Virus record (IMG/VR): IMGVR_UViG_3300031715_000012
Location: 1 to 42,482 of that record
Direction: 5' to 3' (one strand)
DNA from: a virus
Length of the DNA: 42,482 bases
Below, one piece after another: positions 1 to 42,482 of this stretch (position 1 is the stretch's first letter; every line of letters begins with the position of its first letter). Under the pieces are notes generated by a model that was not told the origin of the DNA, searched no databases, and saw only the letters and a program-made list of their open reading frames with translations. A program made the position numbers and the translations under genes.

Positions 1-1
1 T

Positions 2-1133: not shown

Positions 1134-1166
1134 TGGAATTTCTCCTTTAAGCGAACTGGGAATTTT

Positions 1167-1598: not shown

Positions 1599-1610
1599 GA
1601 CCTAAGGTGC

Positions 1611-2084: not shown

Positions 2085-2112
2085 GGGATTCAGTCGTTCG
2101 CTGGGCTGCGTT

Positions 2113-4857: not shown

Positions 4858-4889
4858 GAGGATTGTCTCCTGGAAAAATCGAGGGCTAC

Positions 4890-6314: not shown

Positions 6315-6343
6315 AGTTTGCCTCTTGTCGTGGAGAAGTGAAT

Positions 6344-7965: not shown

Positions 7966-7987
7966 GGGTAAGTTCTCCTGGCGAAAG

Positions 7988-8881: not shown

Positions 8882-8915
8882 TGGAAAGGCGGCTTCGGGC
8901 TTCGGCTATCGGGCT

Positions 8916-9155: not shown

Positions 9156-9400
9156 AGCGGGAACATCCTTTCGAACTCGGCGGCGAGCTCCTCTTCGGTG
9201 AGGGCAAAGGCCAGCTTGAACTGGCGATCGTCCTCGGGGCTACAGCGCCGTTTCCTGCGCGTGCCGGGCGGCTGGGCTGGCACGGGCGCGGCCGGACGAT
9301 AGAACTTTCCGCCCTCGGTCGGCGACAGCACCGCCTGGGCCACCTTCTGGCCGCCGCCCGCTTGCTTGACCGCCCGTAAGTGGTAGGAACGGTTGAACAT
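9152..9400 (-). CDS. Small basic head-module protein of unknown function
   Basis: 82 residues (MFNRSYHLRAVKQAGGGQ), Pro/Arg-rich in the middle and with an acidic, helical end (LTEEELAAEFERMFPL). It is unrecognised. It lies between the decoration-like gene and the connector, and a perfect 9-bp-arm inverted repeat ends 10 nt before its start codon. It is coupled to the next gene by ATGA. Confidence 0.5.
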   Translation of the reverse strand: MFNRSYHLRAVKQAGGGQKVAQAVLSPTEGGKFYRPAAPVPAQPPGTRRKRRCSPEDDRQFKLAFALTEEELAAEFERMFPL

Positions 9401-9410
9401 CGGACTAGCC

Positions 9411-9429
9411 CGTCAATTTGAAATTGACG
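9411..9429. repeat. Perfect 19-bp inverted repeat
   Basis: CGTCAATTTgAAATTGACG has 9-bp arms around one central base and is AT-rich in a GC-rich genome. It lies 10 nt upstream of the minus-strand ATG at 9400, in the 150-bp gap after the decoration-like gene. It could be a protein-binding operator or an RNA hairpin that terminates or processes the capsid transcript; no U-run follows, so a simple terminator is less likely. Confidence 0.8.
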
Positions 9430-9550
9430 AATTTACAGGGGCGGCGCCGCTCCCCGGATGCGCGGGAAAGCGAGGGGGTTTGGTCAGCCGCCCCTGCAGC
9501 CAGGCGCTGGGAGAGAGGCTCTAAGGCGATCTCCCCCGGCTGGCAAACAG

Positions 9551-10108
9551 CTAGCTGATGGTAACGCCGGACTGCTGCACCGGGATCCACTTGCCGTTCC
9601 GGGCCACCAGGGTGACGAAGCTTCCCTGTGTGCCGTTGAACGTGATCAGGTGGTGCGCCGGTGTGATCGAGTTCGCCGGCGCGGTCACGGTATGGGCGTG
9701 GCCGCTGTTGTCGACGATCGTGATCTCGAGGCCGTCGTTGCCGCCGGCCGATGGAGCGCCAGCCACCGGACCCGCCAGCGTAGTAGCATCCACGCCCGCG
9801 GTTTCGATGAAGCTGGTGCCGCAGATCGGCACGCTGGTGGTAGCCGACAGGCCAGGCGGCAGATTGAGCGAGCCCCCGCCACCGGTGATGACGTCAGTGG
9901 TGCCGGTGAGCACTTCGAACTGGAAGGGCAGGTTGCTGCTCTGCCCCACGACGGTGTCGTAGTCCGGAGAGCCGGCGCTGACCATGGGGCCGGGAGTTTG
10001 TGCGGTGATGAAGGTGCCGAGGGCACCGAGAGCGGCGAGCGCAGCCAGAACTTTCAGGACCGCGGCGCCGTGAAAGAACAGCAGGCAAACTAAAAGAATC
10101 GGGTTCAT
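9551..10108 (-). CDS. Head decoration-like protein with hydrophobic N-terminus
   Basis: 185 residues directly after the major capsid gene, the usual place of decoration proteins. Residues 1-36 (MNPILLVCLLFFHGAAVLKV then LAALAALGALGTFITA) form a signal peptide or membrane anchor. The remainder is a beta-rich domain containing DGLEITIVDNSGHAHTVTAP and an ARNGKWIPVQ end, a pattern common in phage surface proteins. GGAGA lies 6 nt before the ATG, so the hydrophobic start is real. Role inferred: capsid decoration or surface protein. Confidence 0.65.
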   Translation of the reverse strand: MNPILLVCLLFFHGAAVLKVLAALAALGALGTFITAQTPGPMVSAGSPDYDTVVGQSSNLPFQFEVLTGTTDVITGGGGSLNLPPGLSATTSVPICGTSFIETAGVDATTLAGPVAGAPSAGGNDGLEITIVDNSGHAHTVTAPANSITPAHHLITFNGTQGSFVTLVARNGKWIPVQQSGVTIS

Positions 10109-10197
10109 CGTTTTTCTCCAGTTTCTAAATTTGTTGGGGCCACCAGATCAGCCGCCAGCGGCAGGTTCGCGCGCTGGCGGCCAAAGCTGGGCGGTTA

Positions 10198-11796
10198 CTA
10201 GCTGGCTGCCTGCTGCAGGTAGCAGATGGGGTGCGTGCCGGCGTCGAGCAGCTGGCCGTCGGCGCGGCTGAAGCCGATGAGAGCCAGCTGGCCGTAATCG
10301 GCAAAGCGCTCGCGCAGGGTGATGATGCCGAGCTCTTTCACCCGGCGAATCACGTACTTGTCGAGCTGCCCGTACAGCACCGTGTTCTGGTTGGCGGCGG
10401 CGACGGCGGGCACCGGCGTCATGTCATTGTTGATGTAGAACGGATAGTCGTTCAGACGATCCGGCTCTCCGGAGGCCATGCTGGGCTTCCACAGCGGGCG
10501 CCCGTACTTGTCGAGCAGCACCTTGATGCGGCGCAGCGTCTGATCGTGGAACATGTACGCGGCCCCGCGGCGATACAGTGGATCGACGGTGTGCTCGAGG
10601 TTGTCGATATCCTGCGAGCCGATGGAGGTGCCGCCGGTTTCAGCGCCGCCGTCGTTGGTGGCGGCTCCGCTCGCGATCAGCGGGATGCCGTAGCCGTTAT
10701 TAGCGCCAGCCCAGGCCGTGGCCGAAGGCGCGCCGCAAGCGGCGATGACCGCGGTCACGATTCCGTTGGGCGCGTTGGTGCCGGTGCCGATGGTGAATTG
10801 CTGGTTGTAGATGCGGCCGATGCGGATGGCGAGCTTCTTTTTGAGATAGCTTTCCATGTCGAAGGCCGAATCCTGCATCAGTTCGAGGGACAGCTTCACC
10901 ATCTTTGAGCTGAACTTCCAGGCGCCGAACAGCACCTGGCCGAGGCTCACGTCTTTGTCCGAGACCTGCTGGCCTTCCCCGACGAGCTCACCCATGATGG
11001 TGGTGTCGTTGTCGGTGGGGTACGGCAGGGGCTGGCCGGTGGCCGTGTCCATGATCTCGGCGACGAGCAGCATGGGGCCGTAGTACTTCAGGGCCTCTTC
11101 GACGTCGTACACGAAGCCTTTGGGCACGAAGTAGCCGCCGAGCGAGAGCGTGCCGATGCCCATGTCGCGCTTTTCCTTGTCGCCGATCTCGGGGCCGCCG
11201 AGCAGGAAGCCGCGGAAGTCTTCGTGCCGACCGAAGACGATCTCGCGATCTTCGTTTTGGGCACGCGCGGGATCGCCGGTGGCGACGGCGCACATGTAGC
11301 GTTTGAAGGATTCGAAGAAGCGCCGGTTCAGGCTCTCGACGGTTTGCCGCACGTCGCTGTGCACGTGATCGAGCGCGAGGTTCTTGAATTGGAGCTGGCC
11401 TCCGCGCTTCGTCACCTGCACGCCATGGCGCCGCAGAGCAGCGTCATAGATCTGGATGTGCGTGGCGCGATCGGTGCCGGGGCGCCGGCTGGGATCGTCC
11501 TGGGGCAGCGTTCCGGAGTTGCCCAGTTCGCGGCTCAGGTTGCCGAGGCGCACTTCGCGCTCGTTGTCGGCAATGATTTCGTCGCGCTCGACGATCAGCG
11601 CGCAGATGGTATCTTTCGCGGGTTTGTCAACGGTGAAGCCTTCGCCGCCGAAATCCATCTTGTCGAATGCGGTGCGGGCCTCCTTCACTTGCTGCGGGGT
11701 GGAGTTTTTGTCGGCGATCTTGGTGCGGAACTCCTGGGCCTGCTGGTTCAGCTGCAGGAGCTGCTGGCGGATCGCGCTCAGTCGGGATTGAGACAT
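10198..11796 (-). CDS. Major capsid protein, HK97 fold
   Basis: 532 residues. An N-terminal ~110-residue, charged, helical region (LSAIRQQLLQLNQQAQEF) is a delta/scaffolding domain of the kind removed by the protease. The mature part has the family pattern: GTLSLGGYFVPKGF, LVAEIMDTATGQPLPYPT, FGAWKFSSKMVKLSLELM, LAIRIGRIYNQQFTIGTGTN and GAAYMFHDQTLRRIKVLLD, then a YGQLDKYVIRRV strand. The length exceeds HK97 gp5 (385) because of the long N-terminal region and a central ~150-residue stretch with Gly/Asn loops. GAGGAC lies 8 nt before the ATG. Confidence 0.93.
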   Translation of the reverse strand: MSQSRLSAIRQQLLQLNQQAQEFRTKIADKNSTPQQVKEARTAFDKMDFGGEGFTVDKPAKDTICALIVERDEIIADNEREVRLGNLSRELGNSGTLPQDDPSRRPGTDRATHIQIYDAALRRHGVQVTKRGGQLQFKNLALDHVHSDVRQTVESLNRRFFESFKRYMCAVATGDPARAQNEDREIVFGRHEDFRGFLLGGPEIGDKEKRDMGIGTLSLGGYFVPKGFVYDVEEALKYYGPMLLVAEIMDTATGQPLPYPTDNDTTIMGELVGEGQQVSDKDVSLGQVLFGAWKFSSKMVKLSLELMQDSAFDMESYLKKKLAIRIGRIYNQQFTIGTGTNAPNGIVTAVIAACGAPSATAWAGANNGYGIPLIASGAATNDGGAETGGTSIGSQDIDNLEHTVDPLYRRGAAYMFHDQTLRRIKVLLDKYGRPLWKPSMASGEPDRLNDYPFYINNDMTPVPAVAAANQNTVLYGQLDKYVIRRVKELGIITLRERFADYGQLALIGFSRADGQLLDAGTHPICYLQQAAS

Positions 11797-11934
11797 CGGA
11801 TTTGTCCTCGTGTTGAAATTCGCGCCCTGCCCACCGCTCCGCGGCGGGGTCGCACGTTTTCAGAAGGCCGCGCTTCGGCCACTACGCCGCGCCGCATCCG
11901 GCACGCCGCCTTCCGGGTGGATCTCGAAAAGTTG

Positions 11935-13140
11935 TTAGCGGACCGCGCGCAGGCGGTCTTCGATGTGGGCCAGCGCGGCGCCGCGGTCGTCATCGGCGCT
12001 CGAGCCTTCGTGATTGCAGCCTTCGTCGTCGCAATCGGGCTCGCTGCAGTTCTCGCAGTCGCCCACCAGGCATTCGGGGCAGTCGCACTCGCAGTTCTCG
12101 CCGCCGCCGATCGTGGCTCTTTGCTCGGCCGTCAGGTTGAAGCTCTTCGACTCCTGGTCGCTCACCGTGATGCCATACTTTTTGCAGAGCCGCACCAGGC
12201 GCTTCCACACGCCGGCCTTTTTGTCGGCCGGCACGTTCTGAGTCTGGTTGAAACGCGCGAGCGCGTTGCGCAGGTGTGACTTGGTTTTCGCGTCGGTCGA
12301 GAACTTCCAGGGCAGCGACCAGGTCGAGGTCTTCTGCGCGTCGCCCACGTAGAGGAACGACGACGCCGGCAGATCTTCGCCGTCGACTCGCTTGGTGAGT
12401 TTGCCGTCGCGCTGAGCGGACCGCTCGGACCGGGTGGCGCTGTGATCGCAGAGGCTCTGGTCGCCGCAGCGCGCCATGTGCATCTCGCATTCGTCGCACT
12501 CGGCCGACTTGCAGGCGCGGCAGCCGCAGCGGCAGGCCTGGTCGTCACCCTGCGAATCGGAAGATCGCAGCTGAGGCACCAGGTCGGTCACGCTGGCCGG
12601 CACGCCGCCGGGGAACATGGCCATGCGCATCTCCATGGCGCGGGCGTTCACGTCGGTGCCGGCATAGGCGGGGTAGGTGACCGGGCTGGCATCGAACAGG
12701 TCGACGTCTTCGATCACGCGCGTGCGGGTGGTTTTGCCGTTGTCCTCTTCCTCGGTGACGGTTTGCTTCGTAACCGTGAAAGCAAAGCTGGCCCCGGTGA
12801 CGTCACCGCGCTTCACCAGCGTCACGACGTCGCGGCCGAGTTGCGTGTCGGGCGGCGTGCAGTCGAAATAAAGCCCGGCGTCATCCTGCTTCAGCTTCAT
12901 GGTGCCGGCGGTGGTGCGGCCGAGCAGCTGGTTGGGATCGTGATTGAAGAGGCAGCGGACGTCCTGCTTTTCCTGCAGGGCGCGGGAGAAGGCGCCGGGC
13001 TTCACCTTCTCGACGACGCGGTAGCTCGAGCTATCCCAGAGCACATACTCTTCGTTGAACACGGCGGCATGGCCCGTGATGTGGCCATCGCCGTCGGCGC
13101 GGATCTCGGCAGCCTTCAGGAATCGGCGTTCGATCGTCAT
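11935..13140 (-). CDS. Prohead protease (S78-like) fused to Cys-rich segments and a DUF6582-like domain
   Basis: 401 residues from ATG 13140, which overlaps the portal stop (ATGA). Residues 1-180 are an S78 prohead protease: GHAAVFNEEY, LFNHDPNQLLGRT with the catalytic-type His, and VTGASFAFTV with the Ser. Then follow a Cys cluster (CRCGCRACKSAECDEC, residues ~213-228), a domain with KRVDGEDLPASSFLYVGD and LARFNQTQNVPADKKAGVWK that resembles DUF6582, and a second Cys/acid cluster at the end (NCECDCPECLVGDCENC). Typical proteases of this family are near 200-250 residues. The Cys clusters suggest metal binding. It matures the capsid by removing the delta domain. Confidence 0.88.
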   Translation of the reverse strand: MTIERRFLKAAEIRADGDGHITGHAAVFNEEYVLWDSSSYRVVEKVKPGAFSRALQEKQDVRCLFNHDPNQLLGRTTAGTMKLKQDDAGLYFDCTPPDTQLGRDVVTLVKRGDVTGASFAFTVTKQTVTEEEDNGKTTRTRVIEDVDLFDASPVTYPAYAGTDVNARAMEMRMAMFPGGVPASVTDLVPQLRSSDSQGDDQACRCGCRACKSAECDECEMHMARCGDQSLCDHSATRSERSAQRDGKLTKRVDGEDLPASSFLYVGDAQKTSTWSLPWKFSTDAKTKSHLRNALARFNQTQNVPADKKAGVWKRLVRLCKKYGITVSDQESKSFNLTAEQRATIGGGENCECDCPECLVGDCENCSEPDCDDEGCNHEGSSADDDRGAALAHIEDRLRAVR

Positions 13141-14957
13141 GGTGCGATCACCTCGGTTTCTTGTTTTGCCGCGGCTGTGGCCGCGTTGCGCCAGGCCTCG
13201 ACGGCCAGGGCGCGGACCGCGCGCAGCAGTTCCTTCTGCGCGATCGAGTCGGCGTTGCCATTGGCTTGCGCCCATTTCTCGTTGCGGGCGCGGTGCAGCA
13301 TGGTTTCGAGATAGCCGGCGAGGAAGCTCGAGCTGGAGAGCGCGTCAGGGCTCAGGTCGGCCGGGAACATCTGGGCCGCATAGTGCTCGAGCTCCTCGCC
13401 GATCGAGACCAACACGGGCAGGAAAACCTGCCGGAAGGCCGCGAGATCAAGGTTGGAACGGGCTGAGATGCGCCCAAAAGCATCACGGAAGAGCCGCGAA
13501 TAGACGCGCGAAACGCGCTGAACCAGCAGGCGGCTGCGGTTGCCGTTACCTTTGCCCTTGGAAGGTTTCGTGTCTGGCTCCTCACCTTCGTCATCCTGGT
13601 TGGCCTCGGGCTCACCACCGGGGCCGGGCAGTGCCGGCGTCTCGTAGAGCTGGTCGACTGGGGCCATGTTGATTTGCATCCAGGTGGCGTCGGCGCCGGC
13701 ATCGCTAAGAGGGTTGTCATTGAGCCGGGCGCGCGCGTCGTTCGGCGCCCACACGCCCCACTGCACCATGGCCTGGATGAACGTGCGCAGGTCCGCGGCC
13801 GCAGGCGTGACCAGGGGCCAGGTATCGAACATCACGGCGAACTTCTTGCCGGCGTTGCGGCCGATGGTGGGCCGCGGGAAGAGCTTGCGATCCATTTCCT
13901 GCTGCCAGCAGATCAGGTCGGGCCGCAGCGAGAATGTGAGGAACTCCTGCCCGATCTGCTCGACGTTGGCGGCGCGGATCTTCTCGGTCGAGCCCACCAT
14001 GTGCGGTGGGACGTTCCCCATCACCCGGCAGCACTCGGCGATCTGGAAATTGCGCGACTCGATGAACTGGCCTTCGTCGGGCTTGGTGGAAGTGGCGACG
14101 TAGTCTTCGCCGCCCTGCAAGACCAGCGGCCGCTGCTGGTTCTCACCGCCCCAGGCTTCCTGCACCTCGCGGGTGAACGCCTGGAAATCTTCAGGAGTGA
14201 GGTTCCCGGGGATCTTGAAAATGCCGTAGCCGAGGGCGCCGTTGCCGAAGAACTTGCCACCGAACTTTTCCGTGGCCAGCGCCAGGCCGACGGCGTTGCG
14301 CGCGAGCTGGATGACGTCTTGCCCGACGCGGCCGTCGAGCGCCAGGCCGGGCAGGCTGATCATGTCGGCCGGCAGGATGGCGCGCTCGCTGGTGTAGCTC
14401 TCGTTGACCGACTCCTCGACGTCCATCGCGGCCGTTTCCATGCCTTCGGTGGTGGCGTAGAACATCTCGCCGGCGCGGATGATTTCACCGCGGATCAGCA
14501 TGGGCTCGCGGGCGCGGCGCACTTTGGTGCGAGCCGGGTTGCGGGGCCAGAGGGCGACGACGCGATCGCCGCCATCGCGCTGCAGCTCGATGTAGCCGTT
14601 GCCCCAGAGCATGCGGTGCGCCTGCACGCACTTGCGCATGGTGAAGCTCGACATTTCGTGGTTCGGCTCTTCGTGCAGCAAATCCCAGAGGTCGTTGTCG
14701 TGATCAGTGCGGCGGTTCAGCCGGCCATCCGGGTTGATGATCTTTTCGAAGATCTTCAGCTCGAGCGCGCCGATCGCTCCTGCCTTCAGCTCGACGCAGG
14801 AATAGATCGTCGTGACCTGCAGGGCCGTCAGCTCGGAGACGCGGATGCCGCTGTCGGTGCGGCCGCCGTTGAAAATATCGAGCAGCCACTCCGCCGGGAA
14901 CGACAGCGGAGTCTGCGGATTTTCGAGCGACGAGCGGAATTCGGAGATCAGGCCCAT
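13137..14957 (-). CDS. Portal protein, HK97 family
   Basis: 606 residues. Family pattern: SELTALQVTTIYSCVELKAG near residue 42, HEEPNHEMSSFTMRK, MLWGNGYIEL, ISLPGLALDGRVGQ, FFGNGALGYGI, and NFQIAECCRVMGNVPPHMVG followed by QIGQEFLTFSLRPDL. The C-terminal ~150 residues are helical and charged (LVQRVSRVYSRLFRDAFGRI), longer than in many relatives. The portal forms the dodecameric packaging ring at one capsid vertex. It starts 7 nt after a small membrane-protein gene and overlaps the protease gene at its end. Confidence 0.93.
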   Translation of the reverse strand: MGLISEFRSSLENPQTPLSFPAEWLLDIFNGGRTDSGIRVSELTALQVTTIYSCVELKAGAIGALELKIFEKIINPDGRLNRRTDHDNDLWDLLHEEPNHEMSSFTMRKCVQAHRMLWGNGYIELQRDGGDRVVALWPRNPARTKVRRAREPMLIRGEIIRAGEMFYATTEGMETAAMDVEESVNESYTSERAILPADMISLPGLALDGRVGQDVIQLARNAVGLALATEKFGGKFFGNGALGYGIFKIPGNLTPEDFQAFTREVQEAWGGENQQRPLVLQGGEDYVATSTKPDEGQFIESRNFQIAECCRVMGNVPPHMVGSTEKIRAANVEQIGQEFLTFSLRPDLICWQQEMDRKLFPRPTIGRNAGKKFAVMFDTWPLVTPAAADLRTFIQAMVQWGVWAPNDARARLNDNPLSDAGADATWMQINMAPVDQLYETPALPGPGGEPEANQDDEGEEPDTKPSKGKGNGNRSRLLVQRVSRVYSRLFRDAFGRISARSNLDLAAFRQVFLPVLVSIGEELEHYAAQMFPADLSPDALSSSSFLAGYLETMLHRARNEKWAQANGNADSIAQKELLRAVRALAVEAWRNAATAAAKQETEVIAP

Positions 14958-14963
14958 CTTGGT

Positions 14964-15227
14964 TTAACGACGTCCTTGCGGCGAGTGCGGGGCGCGCAGC
15001 CCGCGGATGAATCCGGTGGCGAGCTCGAGCCCGGGCAAGATCAGGCAGAACACGCCGACCGCGATCGGCGCCAGGTAGATCCGGATCAGCCCCAGGCCTG
15101 CGGCGACCAGGACCGCGCCGGCGATGTACAGCGTGTCGGATCGGCGCGCGGCTCGCTCGCGCTTCTTAAGAAGCTCGGTTTCGTGCTGCTGCCGGTTGCT
15201 TCCGATCGGGATGGGCTGCGAGCTCAG
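14964..15227 (-). CDS. Small membrane protein between terminase and portal, non-ATG start
   Basis: An open frame bounded by a TAA at its upstream end and TAA at 14966-14964. It encodes about 87 residues with a charged N-terminal stretch (ETELLKKRERAARRSDT) followed by two hydrophobic segments (LYIAGAVLVAAGLGLI and IAVGVFCLILPGLE). No ATG, GTG or TTG occurs before the coding-like part. A CTG at 15227 overlaps the TGA of a 12-codon ORF (15262-15224) as CTGA. It could be a CTG start coupled to that ORF, a -1 slip on its final CCC, or a sequence error. Small membrane proteins at this place occur in other phages. Confidence 0.5.
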   Translation of the reverse strand: MSSQPIPIGSNRQQHETELLKKRERAARRSDTLYIAGAVLVAAGLGLIRIYLAPIAVGVFCLILPGLELATGFIRGLRAPHSPQGRR

Positions 15228-15258
15228 GGCTGTACCTCTGGACTCATATACCGGGAAG

Positions 15259-17073
15259 TCATATGCGCATTAGCCGCGGGCGCGAAGTCGGAATCGGGTG
15301 CGCGTCGGCCGCGGCGATCGCCATGGCGAGCGCGACCATGCCATCGATCTTTTTCGGTGAGTTGGAATTCGAGGGCTTCACCGGCTTCTGATTGCCGGCC
15401 GCGTCGCTCACCACCACCAGGTTGTCGGCCATCCAGTTCAGCACGGGATTGTTGCCGTGTTCGAACTCCGCGCCCTTCACCATGCTGAGCAGGCGCGTGA
15501 TAGGATCGTGCATCGAGACGAAGCCCTGGCGGTGCTCGACCAGCGTGAAGCCATCGGCCTGCAGTTGGTTCACCAGCAGCAGCGCGCGGTAAGGATCGAA
15601 GCGGATCTCGCGCACGTTGAAACGCCGCCCACACTCCCCGACGTCTTTGCGGATAAATTCGTCGTCACGTACGTTGCCTGGCGTCACCTTGAGAAAGCCC
15701 AGGCGCTCCCAGAGTTCGTACGGAATGCGATCGCGCTGCGTGCGCAGAGCCACCGACTCGCGCGGGGCATAGAACCAGGGCAGCACGCGGGCCTTCGGCA
15801 GTTTCGCCTGCTTCGGGAAGAAGAATACGTCGGCGGTCATGTCGTCGGTGGATCCGAGATCGAATGCGCCGTAGCAGGTGAGGCCCTTGAGCTCCTCGAG
15901 CTGGCGAGCTCGCCAGGCCACCGGATCCTCGGCACCGGCGCCGGCACACACGCGCCAGGCCTCGGCGCCGATCGCGCGGGTCTCCCCCTGGGTCCAGAAA
16001 CAGAAATTCAGCCGGCGGACGATGCCTTCCTTGGTCGGCATGGAGACGGCCTCGGTCACGAGCTCGCGCAGATATTCCTTCCGGATGGAGACGCCCAGGT
16101 TCGGGTTGGCTTTGATCCAGACGTCCTCATCGAGCCAGCTGTCGCAATTCGCGCAGCCATCTTTCGGCTGGGTGTGGCCGTTGGCGCGACACTCCTCGCA
16201 GGCGTCGAGGTGGCAGATGAAGGCGAAGTGTGCGTCGTTCTCGAGCACGCCCTCGAGGATCCGCCGCGAGTATTCATGCTGGTGGAAGCAGACCGTCTCA
16301 CGATCGAACCCCGAATTGGTGATCATGAAGATCAGGGCCTGGCGGCGCCCTTTGGTGCCGGCGCGCATCTTGTCGACGACGATCGGGCTGGGATGCTCGT
16401 GGATCTCGTCGAGCAATCCCATGTGCACGCGCTTGCCGTCGAGGCCGCGCTTTTCCGAAGAGATCGGGCGGAAGAAAGAGGCCGTTGCCCGCACCGAGAG
16501 ATTGTTGACGTGTGCCGCGATCTTCTGGCGCAGCAGCGGCGACTGGCTGCGCATGTTCTCGGCGTCGCGGAACAGAATCTTCGCCTGGTCCTTCATGACG
16601 GCCGCGGCGTAGACCTCAGCGGCCGGCTCACCGTCGGCGAGTAGTCCGAACAGACCGATGCCGGCCGCGAGTGGCGACTTACCACTGCCCTTGCCGATCT
16701 CGTTGTAGGCGGTGCGGAAACGGCGGAAGCCGTCGGGGCCCTTCCATCCGAACAGCGACGCCAGGACGAATTGCTGCCAGGGCTCAGGGATGAACGGCTT
16801 GCCGGCGTTCTCGCCCTCGGCGAAGCACAGGAACTTCGAGAAGAACTCGATCACGTACGCGGCCGCGACGTCGTCGTAACGCAGGCCGCGCGTGGGGCCA
16901 TCCGTGAGATCGCGGACGTGGCGCTCGACTGCCAGGAAGACGAGCCGGCCGGTGGGAATGTTTCCGGTCAGGACGTCGAGACAGTAGCGAGCGACGCGCG
17001 GCGTCTTACTGTGCGCGCTCGCTAGCAGGCTTTCGGTCGAGGAAGTCTTGAAGCTGGTCTTGTGCTTTAACAT
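15259..17073 (-). CDS. terL: Terminase large subunit
   Basis: 604 residues from ATG 17073 (a GTG at 17097 is possible), overlapping the small subunit gene. ATPase: Walker A-type NEIGKGSGKSPLAAG, Walker B-type VHMGLLDEIHE. RNase H-like nuclease: GAFDLGSTDDMTA with the first Asp and KKIDGMVALAMA with a later Asp. The protein packages DNA into the prohead through the portal. Between them is CEECRANGHTQPKDGCANC, a C-x2-C-x12-C-x2-C insertion immediately before the DEDVWIKANPNLG motif, likely a zinc-binding loop. The group is HK97/Terminase_1-like. Confidence 0.93.
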   Translation of the reverse strand: MLKHKTSFKTSSTESLLASAHSKTPRVARYCLDVLTGNIPTGRLVFLAVERHVRDLTDGPTRGLRYDDVAAAYVIEFFSKFLCFAEGENAGKPFIPEPWQQFVLASLFGWKGPDGFRRFRTAYNEIGKGSGKSPLAAGIGLFGLLADGEPAAEVYAAAVMKDQAKILFRDAENMRSQSPLLRQKIAAHVNNLSVRATASFFRPISSEKRGLDGKRVHMGLLDEIHEHPSPIVVDKMRAGTKGRRQALIFMITNSGFDRETVCFHQHEYSRRILEGVLENDAHFAFICHLDACEECRANGHTQPKDGCANCDSWLDEDVWIKANPNLGVSIRKEYLRELVTEAVSMPTKEGIVRRLNFCFWTQGETRAIGAEAWRVCAGAGAEDPVAWRARQLEELKGLTCYGAFDLGSTDDMTADVFFFPKQAKLPKARVLPWFYAPRESVALRTQRDRIPYELWERLGFLKVTPGNVRDDEFIRKDVGECGRRFNVREIRFDPYRALLLVNQLQADGFTLVEHRQGFVSMHDPITRLLSMVKGAEFEHGNNPVLNWMADNLVVVSDAAGNQKPVKPSNSNSPKKIDGMVALAMAIAAADAHPIPTSRPRLMRI

Positions 17074-17533
17074 CAGGTTCGAGATCGCGGCCTTCACTGG
17101 CGGCGACTTTGGTGCGGGATGCCGGCGTGAGGCCGAACTCCTGCAGAAATGCTCGGATCAGCCGGCTGCACTCGTTGAAGATCGAGACTGCCGGATTCTT
17201 TTTCAGCGTCGAGACGCCGACCTCGTCGACCTTCGCGATGACGATGCCGTACTTCCTGATCGCGGCGTCGGCCTGCAGCGCCAGGGCGTGCAGTTTGCAG
17301 TAGGCGGCCAGCGCGGGGCCGTCGGCGGTGGTCAGCACGCCCATCTTCTCGAGCACTGGCGTGAGCCGATTCCACTCCTGGCGCGCGGCGCCCTTCAGAT
17401 CTGTGGGCATCTCCGGCATGCCCGCGCGGGGCCGCGGCTCGCGCCGGTTCGGCTTGCGCTTGCCAGGATTGCCGCGGACCGCCTTGACCTTCGACGGCAT
17501 CCGATTGCTGCCGCCTGACCCTCTTCCGCCCAT
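17006..17533 (-). CDS. terS: Terminase small subunit (P27-like)
   Basis: 175 residues from ATG 17533; a GTG at 17563 would add 10 residues. The start MGGRGSGGSNRMPS then KAVRGNPGKRK, the middle EWNRLTPVLEKMGVLTTAD with LAAYCKLHA, and the C-terminal NECSRLIRAFLQEFGLTPAS are diagnostic of the P27/Terminase_4 family. It recognises the packaging site and recruits the large subunit. The downstream end overlaps the large-subunit gene. Confidence 0.9.
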   Translation of the reverse strand: MGGRGSGGSNRMPSKVKAVRGNPGKRKPNRREPRPRAGMPEMPTDLKGAARQEWNRLTPVLEKMGVLTTADGPALAAYCKLHALALQADAAIRKYGIVIAKVDEVGVSTLKKNPAVSIFNECSRLIRAFLQEFGLTPASRTKVAASEGRDLEPDVKAQDQLQDFLDRKPASERAQ

Positions 17534-17617
17534 TTTTGAAAAACTCTTTTGCTGCGGCGTCACGCGTGTGGCTGGACACCGGTCGCTAGCGGCCGCGCCT
17601 GGCGAAAACCGACCCCC

Positions 17618-17950
17618 CTACCCCCCCGCCGATGTCTTTGCCGTGTGATCAGCATGGCAGGCTCCCTGCAAGTTATTCATATCGAAGAAGAACCGCTCGT
17701 CGCCGTTGTGTTGCGCGATGTACTTCGCCGCCGGCACGATGTGGTCCGCGTCAGTGCTCGGCGCGGCCCCACCGCACAGCTTAGCGATCATGCACAGCGG
17801 ATCTCGTGCCAGCACCGCAGGCTGAGTGCGGCGCCGCCACTGCACCGAGTCATAGAGTCGCCGGATCCCGCCGGCGCGACGTTGCCGCTCGCGATCGCGC
17901 GCATCGTGTTCGTGGCCCTGCGGTACAGCTCTCGGCGCTCGGGTAGGCAT
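17618..17950 (-). CDS. HNH nuclease next to terminase
   Basis: 110 residues. LYDSVQWRRRTQPAVLARDP then PLCMIAKLCGG, followed by the nuclease core ADHIVPAAKY, a MNNLQGACHADH segment and the AKT end; this is the HNH order seen in the nuclease encoded beside terminase genes of cos-type phages (HK97 gp74 class), which assists cleavage of packaged DNA. The catalytic His pair is in DHI and the Asn in NNLQ. Its place predicts a cos site in the nearby non-coding DNA, but none was identified. Confidence 0.85.
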   Translation of the reverse strand: MPTRAPRAVPQGHEHDARDRERQRRAGGIRRLYDSVQWRRRTQPAVLARDPLCMIAKLCGGAAPSTDADHIVPAAKYIAQHNGDERFFFDMNNLQGACHADHTAKTSAGG

Positions 17951-17955
17951 TCAAA

Positions 17956-18258
17956 TCAGCGCCGGGTCGCGAGAAACTGCTGTAGCAGCCATAGCGTAAT
18001 GGGCCACAGTCCGATCGCTGACGCGGTGAGAACTCGTGTCCAGATGCGTTGCCAGCCCAGCTGCCGCTGCGTCGTGGTCAGGCGCGTGTTGAGCTTCGTG
18101 TTGATGACAACCTGTTTCTTCAGATTGTCGTGCGCCTTGTTGAGATCGGCCTGCAGCTGCTCCATCGTGCGCTTCTCGGTGTAAGGCTGATAGCGCGTGC
18201 CGTGCTGCTGCACATAGAACTGGAATTCCGACGGCGTCTGGATCTCCGGATGTTTCAT
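17956..18258 (-). CDS. Coiled-coil protein with C-terminal membrane anchor
   Basis: 100 residues. The N-terminal half is polar (MKHPEIQTPSEFQFYVQQHG), the middle is a charged helix (MEQLQADLNKAHDNLKKQ), and a hydrophobic segment near the end (VLTASAIGLWPITLWLLQQF) precedes LATRR. This topology (cytoplasmic coiled coil, tail anchor) resembles i-spanin-like or small phage membrane proteins, but it is not beside the lysis cassette. No function is assigned. It precedes the HNH gene by 5 nt. Confidence 0.55.
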   Translation of the reverse strand: MKHPEIQTPSEFQFYVQQHGTRYQPYTEKRTMEQLQADLNKAHDNLKKQVVINTKLNTRLTTTQRQLGWQRIWTRVLTASAIGLWPITLWLLQQFLATRR

Positions 18259-18397
18259 CGATTACCTTGGTTCCTTGCACCTTCAGCCTGGAAGCGTCAG
18301 GTTTAGACCGTATGGCCGCAAAGCCAGCGTCGGCGCTAGTCTGCGGTCAACACACTCATGCTGGCCCTGCTGCAACTCGCGCCGTACGCTCACGAAC

Positions 18398-18634
18398 TCA
18401 ACCGGTTTGGTTCGGAGTGCGCCGAGGACTGTCCAGCGTGTCTGTGGGTTGCGGAGGTTCAAGCCCATAGTGACGCCGCAATCGCAACTCCGTCGCGCGC
18501 AGCGTCGACCCGTAGTCTGAGGCAATCCCGCCCAGCCAAAGCACCGTATGTGGGGAAAGAGCGTCGGCGCCGTCTGACGCCAGAACCATCTTCACGCACG
18601 CCGCAAGAATTAAATCCTCTAAGCGCCGAAGCAC
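18398..18634 (-). CDS. Possible small protein in the 18.26-18.68 kb gap
   Basis: 78 codons from GTG 18634 with a plausible sequence (LEDLILAACVKMVLASDGAD, later GSTLRATELRLRRHYGLEPP). It is the best reading of a 425-bp stretch between clearer genes. A second minus frame (18468-18283, 61 codons, MGLNLRNPQTRWTVLGALR) overlaps its end and could be real instead or as well. Neither has a strong ribosome binding site, and part of this stretch may be the packaging (cos) region. Confidence 0.35.
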   Translation of the reverse strand: MLRRLEDLILAACVKMVLASDGADALSPHTVLWLGGIASDYGSTLRATELRLRRHYGLEPPQPTDTLDSPRRTPNQTG

Positions 18635-18684
18635 CTGAAATCACGCGGCTGGTCCACACTCCGAGTTAGCCGCCTCGGCGGCAT

Positions 18685-18993
18685 TCACAGCTGCGTTCCA
18701 GCCAAGGCCGGCTGCGGGTTCATTTGCCAGACTGGGATTGGCGTCACTTCAATTTTCAACCGGGGACAGTGGCATCCGGATAGGCGCTTCTGCCACACGG
18801 CCAGGAAATTTCCTGGGACCGGAACGCCGACGTCTTCGGGACGCAGGAATTGCACGGCTTCGCGCCCATCGTTCAGCGTGATATAGTCAGCCTGACCGCT
18901 CTCCACTAGATCGTCGGCCCTGTTGTCCGAGAGGCGGAAACGAAAGGAGTCCACTGCTGGGTTGTCTTCCCAGCCGTACACACGTTTGCTCAT
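18685..18993 (-). CDS. Unknown small protein
   Basis: 102 residues from ATG 18993; the frame is open further upstream, so the start is uncertain. MSKRVYGWEDNPAVDSFRFR, then an acidic middle (ESGQADYITLNDGREAVQFL), then a basic segment with CHC. It looks coding by its amino acid mix but is not recognised. About 125 bp without a gene separate it from the upstream membrane protein. Confidence 0.5.
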   Translation of the reverse strand: MSKRVYGWEDNPAVDSFRFRLSDNRADDLVESGQADYITLNDGREAVQFLRPEDVGVPVPGNFLAVWQKRLSGCHCPRLKIEVTPIPVWQMNPQPALAGTQL

Positions 18994-19120
18994 GATTATC
19001 GAAGGGGGCGGCTTTGGCGCGCGCCCGGCGCTGAAAATGCTCAGAGAAGGGAAAAAACCAGCAGAAGGGGAATTGTGGACCGCTGGCGGGATACTAGCGT
19101 AGTTACGACCGACGCGCAAC

Positions 19121-23646: not shown

Positions 23647-25053
23647 TTAGGTCTGGGCCACCAGGCGCTCCAGATATTCCTTTCCGGTGAGGCCAAAGGT
23701 CGACGCCACCGCGTTCAGTGGGGAAAGCTTCTGCGGGTCACCCATGCCGTCTTTCAGCAGTGGCCGCAGATCGGGATTCACGCGCAGGAAGTAAGGCTTG
23801 CGAGTGCCGTCCAGTTCAGGCGTGGAGTTGATCACCTTGACCATCACCAGGGGCTCGTCGCCGGGGATCTCGGCGCAATACAGCTCGCCGAATTCATCCT
23901 CGGCCAGCTTCTTCGCTCCGCTGTCGATCAGGTAGCGCGTGAGGCCATAACGCTCGATCATCACGCGCCGCACTTCGGCATTCTCTTCGTCGCCGATGTG
24001 CTTCAGCGTGATCCAGTCCGGGCGTGTGACAACAAATGCCGGCACCATGACGCCGTGCCAGTAATAGAGCCCCTCGACGTCCGATTGAAGCGCGGGGCCG
24101 CTGTCATTGTGAAAGCGCTGCCCGGCCCCGGTTTTCTCGCGCGCGAGCTCAGGCTTTGCCACCCAATAGAGCGTGTCCTCGGTCCAGTGCAGCATCCAGG
24201 CGCCAGCGAGGAAGGCATCGAAGACAGGTTTAGACCAGCGCTCGACCGCTTCAGATTTGAGTTCACGCGCGCCGAGGTAGGTCGTTGCGATCCACGAGAG
24301 ATCGAATCGCCACCACCAGCCGTAGCTCTGCACACACCAACAAGCAAAGCGGTGAATCGCTGATCCCACGCTCGCCAGATCCAGCGCATCCCGCGCATCC
24401 AGCGCATCCCGCGCATCCCGCGCAGCCCGCGCATCCCGCGCAGCCCGCGCATCCCGCGCATCCCGCGCAGCCAGCGCAGCCCGCGCAGCCAGCGCATCCC
24501 GCGCATCCCGCGCATCCCGCGCATCCCGCGCAGCCAGCGCATCCCGCGCAGCCAGCGCATCCCGCGCAGCCAGCGCAGCCAGCGCATCCCGCGCAGCCCG
24601 CGCAGCCAGCGCAGCCCGCGCAGCCCGCGCAGCCAGCGCATCCCGCGCAGCCCGCGCATCCAGCGCATCCCGCGCAGCCCGCGCATCCAGCGCATCCCGC
24701 GCAGCCAGCGCATCCCGCGCATCCCGCGCAGCCCGCGCAGCCCGCGCATCCCGCGCAGCCCGCGCATCCAGCGCAGCCCGCGCATCCCGCGCAGCCAGCG
24801 CATCCCGCGCATCCCGCGCAGCCCGCGCAGCCCGCGGTTCGACGCGACTGATCACGTCGAGGGTGTATTTCAGCAGGGCCGGCTCATCTCGAAGATCCCA
24901 GCCCGCGTTGAGGCGCCGAATCGTGCGCGTGACCTTCAGTGCCCCGAGATACTTCTGTAAGGCCTGCTCCACCGCGGGCGCGTCGAGCACGCCCGGATAG
25001 TTGCAGGCCTCGCTGAAGCGGCCGAGTAGCTGTTGCGCGCTAGTCGGCGACAT
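23647..25053 (-). CDS. DUF6745-like protein with an A-(R/L)-(D/A) repeat helix
   Basis: 468 residues from ATG 25053, overlapping the previous stop by 14 bp. Residues 1-74 are a normal globular start ([20 protein letters not shown]). Residues ~76-225 are 50 tandem triplets of the form Ala-(Arg/Leu)-(Asp/Ala), encoded by a 9-bp DNA repeat. The C-terminal ~240 residues ([51 protein letters not shown] and an [14 protein letters not shown] end) match my memory of the DUF6745 family, whose function is unknown. Family members often have Ala-rich helices before this domain, but here the repeat is unusually regular. The repeat is open in all frames, which creates large shadow frames. Confidence 0.75.
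24379..24828. repeat. 9-bp minisatellite, 50 units
   Basis: Plus-strand unit CGC-A(T/G)C-C(C/A)G, in four variants. In coding sense each unit is GCG-C(G/T)G-G(A/C)T, giving Ala, Arg or Leu, then Asp or Ala. Only two bases vary, each with two states. One further degenerate unit lies at 24829-24837. It is an in-frame coding repeat; length change would keep the frame. Confidence 0.95.
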
Positions 25054-25654
25054 TGCGGATCTCGGCCGGCGAATATTCCTTCTGGATCTCGACTTCGTAG
25101 TTGCCCGCGGGCAGGTCGATCGGCGCGTGCTCCTCGTGCACGACACGCACTCCTTCCTCACCCACGCGCAGATACAACCCTTCGCCCACTTCGAGCACTT
25201 CGGCTCGCGTGAGGTCCTCGATCTTGTGTGCGTGGCCGGTGACCTCGCCGTAAGCGAGAATCCCGGTTGCTCGTGGTGCGGCCTTTTGCGTCGGCAGGCT
25301 GCTGATGCGCCGAATGAGAACATCGCCCTGGCGGTAGATGTGTTGCTTCATGGCGTTAATCCTTTCGACCAACGGTTGGAACGAAAAATCAAATTGAGCG
25401 GAGGGAGCTTTCAGTGGAGGAGGAGAACTCGGCGCGGCGATGGCAGGTGCCGGCAGCCGTTGTTTACGTGGTCCGCCGACGAGCGCGAGGGACTCCTCCA
25501 ACCTTGTGGCGAAGCAGGTCGAGCACAGCGCCTTGCGCAGGCCCGAGGCCAGCGTCAGCGTTCCGGCCGTCGATCGGCCGCAGGCAAAACATTCGCGCTC
25601 GCGGCCCTTGCTCGAAATGCTCCACTCAAAGTGGTGCCTCCGGCTACTCGCCAC
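25040..25654 (-). CDS. Zinc-ribbon N-terminus joined to a conserved small phage protein
   Basis: 204 codons in one open frame. Residues 20-50 carry C-x2-C ... C-x2-C (CFACG ... CSTCF), a zinc-ribbon pattern. Residues from 102 on ([68 protein letters not shown]) match a widespread small phage protein normally encoded alone at about 100 residues. An internal ATG at 25351 with AAGGA 9 nt upstream could produce it separately, so the locus may make both a long and a short form. Confidence 0.7.
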   Translation of the reverse strand: MASSRRHHFEWSISSKGRERECFACGRSTAGTLTLASGLRKALCSTCFATRLEESLALVGGPRKQRLPAPAIAAPSSPPPLKAPSAQFDFSFQPLVERINAMKQHIYRQGDVLIRRISSLPTQKAAPRATGILAYGEVTGHAHKIEDLTRAEVLEVGEGLYLRVGEEGVRVVHEEHAPIDLPAGNYEVEIQKEYSPAEIRNVAD

Positions 25655-26059: not shown

Positions 26060-26092
26060 TTAGAGCTGCAGCTTATGAGTCCACGGCTCTAA
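26060..26092 (-). other. attP: Predicted attP core
   Basis: On the minus strand TTAGAGCCGTGGA, then CTCATAA, then GCTGCAGCTCTAA: two imperfectly inverted 13-bp sites (7 bp perfect at the outer ends) flanking exactly the 7-nt anticodon loop of a tRNA-like sequence. It lies about 200 bp from the integrase stop. This is the geometry of core-type integrase sites with a 7-bp overlap region (known for tyrosine integrases). Confidence 0.7.
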
Positions 26093-26110
26093 CCGCTGAG
26101 CTACGGGCCC
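26073..26110 (-). tRNA. 5' half of a tRNA with CAU anticodon (Met/Ile2 type), partial
   Basis: Minus strand GGGCCCG (acceptor 5' strand), TA, D arm GCTC-AGCGGTTA-GAGC, then CGTGGA and anticodon loop CTCATAA. Beyond the loop the sequence cannot pair with the anticodon stem, and no T arm or 3' acceptor strand follows. So it is not a working tRNA but a copy of the 5' half, ending exactly at the anticodon loop. It is interpreted as the host-identity half of attP. Confidence 0.75.
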
Positions 26111-26180
26111 AAGGTCGACCAGGCTACTGCTGAAAAGACTGGGATCAGGGACGAAGCAAAATGTTTCGACTACGCCGTGG

Positions 26181-26209
26181 ACAATACACGAAGCCGTGGG
26201 GCCACGCAA
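26181..26209 (-). promoter_or_regulatory. Candidate promoter facing the tRNA 5' half
   Basis: Minus strand TTGCGT, 17-bp spacer holding GGCCCCACG, then TATTGT, about 70 bp upstream of the tRNA half. After integration it could drive the host tRNA whose own promoter was separated. The spacer contains a perfect copy of the operator-like near-palindrome (26195-26206). Confidence 0.45.
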
Positions 26210-26289
26210 GAGGAAAATGCAAGATCGCGGCCCCGCGCGGGGTTCGGGTTCCCAAAGTGGTAACTGCGTTGCTGCACTTTAACGCGGTT

Positions 26290-27390
26290 TCATTTTTTCA
26301 CCAGCATCAGCTGCGCTCTCTCGGCCGGCGCCGCGCCCTTCTTTGCGAGGCCGTCGACGGCCTCGCGCTTCGTGCGCATGCGGATGTGCGAGTAGCGCTC
26401 GAGCATCGCCCGCGACACATGGCCAGCCAGCTCGATCACCGTGCGCTCGCTGACGTCTTCATCCTCGAGCAGCCGAGTGATGGCATGGTGCCGTAGATCA
26501 TACATCCGGAGCTGGGGAAGTCCAGCGGCCGCGCGCAGCTTTTTCCAGGCAGTGCGCCAGCTGGTGATCGGCCGCGTCACGTCAAAGCCCTGGCGGCCGT
26601 TCGCCGCGCGGTGGGGCAGCAGGTAGTGAGCTGTGTCGACGGCGCCGATCTCTCGCGCGCGCTGTGCGAGAGTTCGCACCGCCCACGCGGCCGTCTCGTT
26701 GAGCGGGATGGTGCGGCGCCGGTATTCGTTCTTCACGCCTTCCGATATCCGGATCGCCGGCGGCATGTCGGGTTGCCCTGCACCGATATCGAGGTCGCCG
26801 AGCTTCAGGTGGCGGATCTCGTTCGGGCCCGCGGTAGTGTTCGCGGTGATCAGGCTACAGCAGTAGGCCACAAGCCAGCGCGGGTTCGAGCCGGCCATGC
26901 GAAACAGCCGAGTCTCATCTTCCGCGGCGATCGCGCAGCCCACCTGCGGCCGCGGCAGCCGCAGCGGCTTGTAGTGCTCGGCCATCGGCTGCCACAGGCC
27001 TGCGCGCCCGAGGATCTGCGAGAGCGTGTTCAGCTCGTGGTTCACGCGCGACGGGCCGACGCCGCCGGAGCGCATTTTCTGGTACCACTCGAGATGCCCG
27101 ATGTGGATCTGGCCGAGCTGCAGCTTTCCGAAGAACGGAGTCAGCGCCTTGATGCAGTTGCGATAGTCGCGCACGGTGCCGGCGGAGATGTGCTGCGCGT
27201 GAGACTCGAGCCACGCCGCAGCTGCGGACGGAAAAGCCATGGCGCCGAGAGCGTCTGGGAAGAGCATGCGCCTGCGAGCCTCGTCGCACGCCGGGCAGTC
27301 GATGTGTCCGGTCGTGTGCTCTAGTTCCCTGGGTTCGGCCCGAGCGCCTCTCACCGCCTCGCAGTTGTTAGACGCCATCAGTGGCCTCAT
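26290..27390 (-). CDS. int: Integrase, tyrosine recombinase
   Basis: 366 residues. N-terminal C-x2-C (DCPACDEARRR, near residue 33), a SAM-like core-binding domain (FPSAAAAWLESHAQHISAGT to about 145) and a catalytic domain with ArgI in AGPNEIRHLKL, the Arg of MYDLRHHAITRL, the AGHVSRA box and the nucleophile in MLERYSHI. In the box usually written HxLR the His is Tyr here. The gene reads towards the predicted attP, which follows after about 180 bp. It catalyses site-specific integration and, with a directionality factor, excision. Confidence 0.9.
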   Translation of the reverse strand: MRPLMASNNCEAVRGARAEPRELEHTTGHIDCPACDEARRRMLFPDALGAMAFPSAAAAWLESHAQHISAGTVRDYRNCIKALTPFFGKLQLGQIHIGHLEWYQKMRSGGVGPSRVNHELNTLSQILGRAGLWQPMAEHYKPLRLPRPQVGCAIAAEDETRLFRMAGSNPRWLVAYCCSLITANTTAGPNEIRHLKLGDLDIGAGQPDMPPAIRISEGVKNEYRRRTIPLNETAAWAVRTLAQRAREIGAVDTAHYLLPHRAANGRQGFDVTRPITSWRTAWKKLRAAAGLPQLRMYDLRHHAITRLLEDEDVSERTVIELAGHVSRAMLERYSHIRMRTKREAVDGLAKKGAAPAERAQLMLVKK

Positions 27391-28243: not shown

Positions 28244-29032
28244 TCAGTCGCCGGCTTGTGAGGCTGGAGGATTTTCTGGGACCGCGCTGCGCTGGGGCTT
28301 CCTGGCTGCGCGGGTTGGGGCAATTTCGGGGCTGGTGGCGAGAGGCTCAGGCTCCGAAAATAGGTTAGTCTGGCGGAGCTGCCGGAAGGCGTCGCGGCTG
28401 CTGATTGCCCTGGCCACACTGTGGGCGGTTTCATCGGCATCGGCCCGGGTGTAGTGGTCAGCCGTCTTCAGCGACTTCCAGCCCAGCCAGAGCTGCACTT
28501 CGTTCACCGGTAGCCCGGAGCGCATGAGGTGTTTCGCGATCGAGTGCTTCAGCTTGTGGGGGCTGCGTTTCTTCCTCTGGATCCCGGCCTCGGTGGCGTA
28601 GGCCCGAAAGAGCTGGTAGTAGCGGATCCGGGTGATGGGGAACAGCCGCTCGTCGTCATCGGGAGGCGAAAACTTAACATTCTGGATAGATTGTAAAGTT
28701 TTCGCCGCACGCCTTCGGCCCTCCGGTTTGGCGGCTCCCTTCACCCCGCGGGTGCCCATCTCGGCCAGCCAGGTCCGCACCGCGGTCACCTCGTCGAGCA
28801 GAGGGTTCTCGTGCCCCTGCAGCGGCTGCTCGGTCTCTTCGCTGCCCTTGCCGCGATAGACCCGCAGGAAGTTGCCGTCGAGATCTCGCCGGCGGATGTT
28901 CAGCGCCTCGCTCGCCCGAAGGCCGTGTCTGTAAGTAACCAGCAGCAGCACCCAGTCGCGCAGCCGGCGCGCGCGCGCGATCGCGAGCACACGCAGCAGC
29001 TCGTCTTCGGTGAGTGAGACAGGTGGCTTCAT
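28244..29032 (-). CDS. Second tyrosine recombinase (Xer-like), with Lys in place of a catalytic Arg
   Basis: 262 residues from ATG 29032 (a GTG at 29101 is possible). It has ArgI in YRHGLRASEALNIRRRDLD, a box reading PHKLKHSIAKHL where relatives have HxLRH, LWLGWKSLKTADHY with the Trp variant of the His/Trp position, and the nucleophile in DHYTRAD. Residue K of HKLK replaces the usual second Arg. The N-terminal arm domain is very short. It is separate from the integrase and could resolve multimers, work with it, or bind without full activity. The C-terminal 50 residues are Pro-rich and disordered. Confidence 0.8.
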   Translation of the reverse strand: MKPPVSLTEDELLRVLAIARARRLRDWVLLLVTYRHGLRASEALNIRRRDLDGNFLRVYRGKGSEETEQPLQGHENPLLDEVTAVRTWLAEMGTRGVKGAAKPEGRRRAAKTLQSIQNVKFSPPDDDERLFPITRIRYYQLFRAYATEAGIQRKKRSPHKLKHSIAKHLMRSGLPVNEVQLWLGWKSLKTADHYTRADADETAHSVARAISSRDAFRQLRQTNLFSEPEPLATSPEIAPTRAARKPQRSAVPENPPASQAGD

Positions 29033-29107
29033 AGGAGGCGGCCGCGGCGAATGGTTCCCGCCGCGGCCGTTGCAAACGCTGGGGGGCCCTGGCGTTCGCA
29101 CAATCGT

Positions 29108-41791: not shown

Positions 41792-42064
41792 TCACTCCAT
41801 CCGGCAAGTCTTCACTCCGTCAGCCTGGTTATCGATATCGATCGCCAGATCGCGCTGCAGGTGTGCGTCGCTCACATCGAAGGCGGTGAGCTCGCTGTCG
41901 GCGACCAGGCCGCCCAGGACCTCGTCGTGCTTTGTGCCCACGGCCAGCTCGGTGTCGGAATTCATGATGCGGATGATGACCTGGTGCTGCTCGATCGAGC
42001 GGACCTCGCAGAGTAGCAGGGCCGCGGCGCCCTCGCGCAGCTCGTGGCCGTTGATGTCTTTCAT
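41792..42064 (-). CDS. Unknown small tail-module protein
   Basis: 90 residues; GAGGA 9 nt upstream. MKDINGHELREGAAALLLCE then QHQVIIRIMNSDTELAV, a small beta-barrel-like pattern. It lies between the chaperone extension and the gp10-like gene. Not recognised. Confidence 0.6.
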   Translation of the reverse strand: MKDINGHELREGAAALLLCEVRSIEQHQVIIRIMNSDTELAVGTKHDEVLGGLVADSELTAFDVSDAHLQRDLAIDIDNQADGVKTCRME

Positions 42065-42074
42065 TCGACAATCC

Positions 42075-42482
42075 TCACGCGGAGGCGGGCCTCACGTTCT
42101 TGAAGCTGGTGAGCATTGCGCGGCGGAAGGCAGCGACCTGCTCCGGATCCACCTCGAACTTCTCACCGCGCATGACGGCCTCGGCGAATTCGCGCATGTC
42201 GTCTTCTTCGGTGGAGGCACCGGGCAGGAAGTCGGCGGGGGTGAACGGCTCAGCGCGCTTCTCTTCGTCGCGGTGGCAGTTGGCTACGACCGAACAGATC
42301 ATCGCGGCCGGCAGCAGGCGATCGCGCGCAACGTCGGCATCGGCGGCGAAGAACTGGTCGAGCTCGCGCGGCGTCGTGCTCAGGAATTCGGCGCGAGTAA
42401 GCGCGAGTCGACGCCGGGCCCGGAAGTATAACCAGGCTGGCTCAGCGGCTCGGGCGTCGCCACGGGCGCCGGATCCATTCCC
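42075..42482 (-). CDS. gpT-like frameshift extension of the tail chaperone (partial, runs through the contig end)
   Basis: Open frame that enters from the contig end and stops at 42075. It is the -1 frame continuation of the gpG-like gene at 501-25 after circular closure. The translated segment before the internal Met at 42302 contains TRAEFLSTTPRELDQFFAA and RDRLLPAAMICSVVAN, an arrangement typical of the T domain of tail assembly chaperones, which bridges tape measure and tube protein. An ATG at 42302 could make a 75-residue protein alone, but the conserved part begins well upstream of it and has no ribosome binding site, so it is most simply the GT fusion. The next gene starts 10 nt later. 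Confidence 0.8.
   Translation of the reverse strand, partial: GNGSGARGDARAAEPAWLYFRARRRLALTRAEFLSTTPRELDQFFAADADVARDRLLPAAMICSVVANCHRDEEKRAEPFTPADFLPGASTEEDDMREFAEAVMRGEKFEVDPEQVAAFRRAMLTSFKNVRPASA
42357..42482. repeat. Terminal direct repeat, right copy
   Basis: Right copy of the 126-bp end overlap, identical to bases 2-127. Joining the copies gives a circle of about 42,356 bp and restores the -1 frame extension of the tail assembly chaperone, which supports the closure biologically. Confidence 0.95.

Follow-up and report, generated by a model that had tools for sequence, protein, structure and literature searches.

What becomes of a host tRNA gene when the phage that enters it brings along the 5' half of that gene and not the 3' half? 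The question is raised by a tRNA-like sequence next to the integrase gene of a virus record in IMG/VR, analysed here over its whole length of 42,482 bp (the window). The first 127 bases of the window (1-127) recur as its last 127 (42356-42482), a direct terminal repeat of the kind that k-mer overlap in an assembly usually leaves; the genome is therefore circular, with a length of about 42,355 bp. Its genes for portal, capsid, head protease, tape measure, tail fibre and integrase are those of a tailed temperate phage, from soil.

The integrase gene and the tRNA half

The integrase, a tyrosine recombinase of 366 aa, is encoded on the minus strand at 26290-27390 (Pfam Phage_integrase, E 4e-11; PHROG 1, E 2e-34), and its translation shows the conserved R, K, RH, GH and Y motifs. 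A tblastn search against named phages gave no match. The nearest relative, at 69% identity, is the integrase of L002; no tRNA half was found near L002 or G003, the L002 record being linear and possibly partial. A second tyrosine recombinase of 285 aa (28244-29101, minus strand; Phage_integrase, E 4e-24) is located 850 bp past the start of the main integrase gene, and on the other side a DUF6745 protein of 558 aa (23647-25323, minus strand; E 2.5e-32) is encoded near the tRNA half.

As the original prediction stated, the integrase gene reads towards the tRNA half, which lies 179 bp downstream of its stop codon (gap at 26111-26289, minus strand, read directly) and runs in the same direction. The minus strand from 26110 reads GGGCCCGTAGCTCAGCGGTTAGAGCCGTGGACTCATAA, then GCTGCAGCTC..., and we could follow the predicted course of the tRNA-like sequence from the acceptor 5' strand to the end of the seven-base anticodon loop, where it stops (26110-26073). 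This block (26073-26110, minus strand) is identical at 38/38 positions to nt 1-38, the 5' half, of intact tRNA-Ile2(CAU) genes (L003, L004, L005). Its last seven bases, the loop CTCATAA (nt 32-38; 26073-26079, minus strand), would form the integrase overlap region. The right flank of the core that follows, GCTGCAGCTCTAA (26060-26072, minus strand), is phage-specific and differs from the host 3' half, TCCATTGGTC....

In a comparison with 72 Acidobacteriaceae tRNAs, the block (38/38, E 9e-12) was the only part of the window with a significant likeness to a tRNA, and no significant 3' tRNA stretch was found anywhere in the window; ARAGORN detected no whole tRNA gene in the window either. The site thus contains the 5' part of its target tRNA and lacks the 3' part, as do members of the 5' class of Islander islands. 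Concerning the two inverted 13-bp core sites proposed to surround the loop, the right and left flanks agree at 9/13 positions when inverted, which is chance level, and 109 equal places occur in the window, so that this part of the prediction is not retained. A reading of the 61-nt stretch as a hairpin was likewise rejected (z = -1.05, not significant).

The host tRNA gene

A scan of 84,980 species genomes with the exact 38-mer (26110-26073) returned three places, all of them intact tRNA-CAU genes in two Acidobacteriaceae MAGs (two in palsa_199, one in palsa_246); host tRNAs starting with this 5' half, on which the prediction hinged, therefore exist. Acidobacteriaceae genomes have three CAU tRNAs, namely the initiator, the elongator Met and the target. 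By elimination among these, and from its likeness to known Ile2 sequences, the target is tRNA-Ile2, the reader of AUA; of the two identities offered beforehand, tRNA-Met falls away and tRNA-Ile2(CAU) stands. The tRNAs of palsa_199 and palsa_246 are intact, and no displaced 5' half or close integrase was found in these two MAGs. No lysogen of the window phage appeared in the 38-mer scan of the 84,980 genomes or in an integrase search of 398 family genomes.

The full host gene continues with TCCATTGGTCCCAGGTTCGAATCCTGGCGGGCCCACCA, whose TCCAT pairs with the GTGGA of the phage in the anticodon stem. This bears on a different use of tRNA sequence by phages, tRNA-dependent lysogeny, in which the host tRNA is destroyed and a separate whole phage tRNA compensates. 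Such a strategy is known in actinobacteriophages (PMC10865867), and a whole extra tRNA adjoins the att site in two relatives (G264 and G032), yet no tRNA gene is detected by ARAGORN in the window, and the phage half plus the host 3' half make a complete tRNA. We regard this reading as the least credible of those considered, with next to no chance of being right.

A related prophage and its empty site

We searched the window integrase in the 398 Acidobacteriaceae genomes. In G027, contig C2 starts inside an integrase whose last 117 residues are 62% identical to those of the window integrase. Its gene stops at 363; 202 bp further on, at 566-641, comes an intact tRNA-Ile2 in the same direction. 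If a 5' half had been integrated here, an orphan 5' half would be expected elsewhere in the genome. It is found at C10:327634-327675, where nt 1-42 are present at 100% identity with no match beyond, and the 1.9 kb from there to the contig end hold phage-like reading frames, among them a deoxyribosyltransferase-like one and, at the contig edge, an ERF recombinase-like one (assigned by eye). The two G027 copies have no common sequence upstream of nt 1. The draft genome shows a single gene each for tRNA-Ile2, the elongator Met and the initiator.

Another genome, G093, has a single unoccupied tRNA-Ile2 at 9335, around which both host flanks of G027, from different contigs, are collinear over more than 9 kb upstream (4304-16889 of 17634, corresponding to G093 1-9265) and 8 kb downstream (1314-10216, corresponding to G093 10661-19000). 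The phage-side sequences of G027 have no match in G093. Judged by this collinearity, the G093 locus is the empty site of the G027 prophage. The expectation of prophage junctions at the anticodon loop is thus borne out by a relative, with both junctions in one genome; for the window phage itself the search yielded no lysogen, and junctions elsewhere were not seen.

5' halves in other phages

IMG/VR was searched with degenerate patterns for the 5' and the 3' half of tRNA-Ile2. The 5' pattern matched nine contigs: five have just the 5' half (L135, L136, L137, L138 and L140), and the other four contain whole tRNA genes. The 3' pattern matched 20 whole genes and three places with a 3' half alone, of which one is at a contig end. 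The integrases of L137 and L138 group with that of the window (58% identity), with the half 1.5-2.2 kb past the gene, that of L136 is distant (35%), and those of L140 and L135 belong to other subfamilies. In all six phages, window included, the integrase gene lies upstream of the half, in the same direction, and points to its 5' end; the distance between them is 0.2-0.4 kb or 1.5-2.2 kb in five of the six. Identity with the host stops exactly where the loop does in the window, L135, L136 and L138, and runs 2-4 nt past it in L137 and L140 and in the host loci of G163 and G027. Ends at or shortly past the loop edge fit a 7-nt overlap at nt 32-38, a length known for anticodon-loop integrases (PMC8371274).

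The exact 5' half with its host matches, the related prophage with both junctions and an empty site, and the five other phage attPs all agree with the predicted attP, its crossover in the anticodon loop and its 5' polarity. The window site is thus very probably the attP of a temperate Acidobacteriaceae phage that would use it for 5'-mode integration at the anticodon loop of tRNA-Ile2(CAU), with cleavage predicted at the borders of the loop. The opposite, classical arrangement would make the 5' half incidental and place the true attP, with a 3' half, elsewhere in the phage. The 3' mode is the general rule, accounting for 3,760 of 3,919 Islander islands (PMC4383910), and it is seen in relatives of the same integrase clade; nevertheless, the window has no significant 3' tRNA stretch to serve it, both junctions seen in relatives with this 5' half are those of the 5' mode, and identity stops at the loop edge in independent phages. 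We consider the classical arrangement highly improbable for this phage.

Displaced tRNA fragments in Acidobacteriaceae genomes

A census of 300 genomes of the family, in which only those with at least two matches to the Ile2 gene were counted, revealed an orphan 5' fragment in seven (G027, G088, G163, G011, G206, G202 and G042) and an orphan 3' fragment in seven others (G138, G026, G057, G002, G107, G086 and G230); a 3' fragment of G011 that starts at a contig end was left out of the count. A displaced 5' fragment upstream together with an intact tRNA downstream is found in G027 and G163, and also, with contig gaps, in G088 and G206. In G163 the whole arrangement is on a single contig, with the orphan 5' half, 7.3 kb, the integrase, and the intact tRNA 7 bp past its stop; across G163, G088 and G206 an integrase ORF stops short of the intact tRNA by 2-33 bp. 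The pairs of G202 and G042 are relics 0.7-2.6 kb apart in which no integrase was found.

Such relic pairs suggest that the half in the window could itself be decayed: acquired from an older prophage or a host, it would no longer serve as an attP. Its identity to the host at 38/38 positions, the intact integrase ORF 179 bp off and the recurrence of the same layout in independent phages speak against decay, which we judge to have only a slim chance of being correct.

The 5' share at Ile2, 7/14, exceeds that among Islander islands (159 vs 3,760; Fisher P ~6e-7, a value that is only a guide since the census methods differ). As a control, the elongator Met gene gave three 5' and about 13 3' fragments in a subset of the genomes. 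The 5' share may therefore be raised across Acidobacteriaceae and be highest at Ile2.

A sequence upstream of the rebuilt tRNA (GCTACAGTATCCG...GTCATTGAA) is common to the attR of G206 (L227), the attR of G042 (L222) and the orphan 5' half of G042, as if successive elements had entered an already replaced 5' half. In G002 (C21:89934-99275; L005, L009) the same tRNA-Ile2 gene is occupied on its 3' side by a 9.2-kb element, which has a displaced 3' copy at the end away from the gene; an integrase remnant adjoins the tRNA. Integration thus targets either half of this gene. In G086 (L233; 5592-5667, 5676-5894) 9 bp separate the end of an integrase remnant from the intact tRNA-Ile2 that follows it, and a 3' fragment lies downstream; this locus is the remains of a 5'-mode and a 3'-mode element at one gene.

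Predicted junctions and the promoter of the rebuilt tRNA

We propose that the integrase recombines nt 1-38 of the phage with the host gene, using the 7-nt loop CTCATAA as overlap. At attL, the host 5' half would be left with the host promoter as a dead fragment, with the phage right flank behind it, so that the junction would read from host upstream sequence through nt 1-38 into GCTGCAGCTCTAAAGC. At attR, the phage 5' half and the host 3' half would give a complete tRNA-Ile2 downstream of the integrase gene, reading from window 26111-26200 (minus strand) through nt 1-38 into TCCATTGGTCCC. Relatives agree with such a partition: a promoter-like host sequence, TGTAAAAT, is present upstream of unoccupied genes (L003, L005), and in G163 it is found at attL and is absent from attR. 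In relatives the host promoter region stays with the dead 5' half.

By this geometry the phage half would displace the host promoter, and the rebuilt tRNA-Ile2, probably essential, would therefore be transcribed from prophage DNA, either by read-through from the integrase gene or from a putative promoter in the 179-bp gap. The claim that the phage must supply a promoter accordingly keeps its general, geometric part and loses its particular sequence, TTGCGT-N17-TATTGT (26181-26209, minus strand), which is unsupported: it matches the consensus at 7/12 positions, matches as good turn up about 8 times per kb on each strand, and shuffled sequences attain this score 99% of the time. A consensus scan found no promoter in the window's 179-bp gap. 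Just past the integrase stop, L136 has TTGACA-17-TATTGT (10/12, shuffle P 0.015) and G027 has TTGACA-18-GAAGAT (9/12, P 0.05); no candidate of this quality occurs in the window gap.

Short repeated motifs were also noticed around the attP core. L261 has a core-like motif on both sides of the attP core, at 7321-7333, 7363-7375 and 7418-7430 (AAAGAGCAGGGGA / TTAGAGCAGGGGA / AAAGAGCAAGGGA), and the similar motifs AAAGAGCATGGGAT and AAAGCGCAAGGGAT stand directly upstream of the half in the G027 attR and in L138. They are possible candidates for integrase-binding arm sites.

Direction of the tRNA and half carried among related integrases

A tree of 58 integrases, built by a quick method and with partial labels (L050, labelled in it as 5' mode, is actually a 3'-fragment case), contains two clades. 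In clade one the tRNA faces the integrase gene, in the classical manner, with 3' repeats of 46-55 bp; in clade two the tRNA runs in the direction of the integrase. Both halves occur within clade two, 3' fragments for example in G196 and 5' halves in the window, L138, L136 and G027. In G196 (L055; G196:C1, ~3810347 and ~3792012) the displaced 3' fragment is beside the integrase and the intact tRNA-Arg(CCG) is 18 kb away, and this layout, which puts the integrase and the intact tRNA at opposite ends, is common in its clade. The distribution of the two halves suggests that tRNA direction is a trait of the clade and that the half carried can change.

The idea that every same-direction pair of integrase and tRNA reflects the 5' mode was discarded, as BLAST with a tRNA library revealed many with a displaced 3' fragment. 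Two single candidates were also set aside: G052 (tRNA-Arg), which is not a clean pair because its orphan 5' half has a different acceptor end, and G032 (tRNA-Lys), in which the whole gene is duplicated 40 kb apart and the mode is ambiguous. G032:C51 (L046-L048; concatenated 1601-1676, 41889-41964) has two identical whole tRNA-Lys(TTT) genes in the same direction with about 40 kb between them and an integrase beside one copy, and its att site seems to contain the complete tRNA gene. The L050 element (G264:C162; 14-90, 9444-9519, 9539-9587), at a tRNA-Pro gene, has an additional, diverged tRNA-Pro(TGG) gene immediately ahead of the displaced 3' fragment, sharing 38 nt with the start and leader of the host gene; this arrangement may resemble tRNA-dependent lysogeny.

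Relation to known integration systems

The 5' mode itself is already known. A displaced 5' fragment characterizes 159 of 3,919 Islander islands (4%) (PMC4383910), 5' fragments in bacteria had been noted earlier (Zhao and Williams 2002, as cited in PMC6563490), and a 2021 review describes the mode as seldom met in bacteria (PMC8371274). With the Islander 5' class, the window has in common a tyrosine integrase, a tRNA target and a 5' part in the attP, and its relatives also have the displaced 5' fragment upstream and the intact tRNA, off its promoter, at the other end. Unlike that class, it is a complete phage genome and belongs to a clade of Acidobacteriota phages, and about half of the displaced fragments at tRNA-Ile2 in Acidobacteriaceae are 5' fragments, against 4% there.

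The pTN3-like integrases of Thermococcales (Cossu et al. 2017, PMC5495485; reviewed in PMC8371274) offer a second parallel. Their attP likewise has a tRNA 5' part up to the anticodon region (41 bp in pTN3), and the rebuilt tRNA loses its original promoter and is placed downstream of integrase sequence. However, the pTN3 attP is part of the integrase gene, and integration splits this gene, whereas the attP of the window is 179 bp past the stop and leaves the gene whole; pTN3 is moreover archaeal, from another domain of life, and has another target tRNA. With classical anticodon-loop integration (Williams 2002; Campbell 2003, cited in PMC8371274), the place of the crossover and the kind of enzyme are shared, and relatives in the other clade of the same integrase family integrate in this way, but the opposite tRNA half is carried and the tRNA has the opposite direction with respect to the integrase gene. 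As in the tRNA-dependent lysogeny of actinobacteriophages (PMC10865867), phage DNA would keep the tRNA function; there this is done by a separate whole phage tRNA gene with a phage promoter, and here by a phage half gene spliced to the host half.

No paper describing the 5' mode for Acidobacteriota was found in the literature covered, which is weak evidence, as that literature includes few subscription papers. What is new is a clade of Acidobacteriota phages using the 5' mode, together with the unexpectedly high frequency of 5' fragments at tRNA-Ile2 in Acidobacteriaceae (7/14 displaced fragments). The mode being common in one bacterial family, its rarity elsewhere becomes testable there, and an integrase family with an apparently clade-bound direction and a changeable half provides a natural comparison.

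Most elements that enter tRNA genes give back the 3' half, and the host promoter stays in charge; in the 5'-half group, a probably essential host tRNA would pass under the control of prophage DNA. We tentatively raise the idea, itself rather doubtful, that Acidobacteriaceae phages of at least three or four separate integrase lineages converged on replacing the promoter and 5' half of tRNA-Ile2(CAU). The decoding of AUA in a lysogen would then rest on a prophage promoter or on the integrase transcript, and the prophage might control host decoding, or be selectively locked to it.
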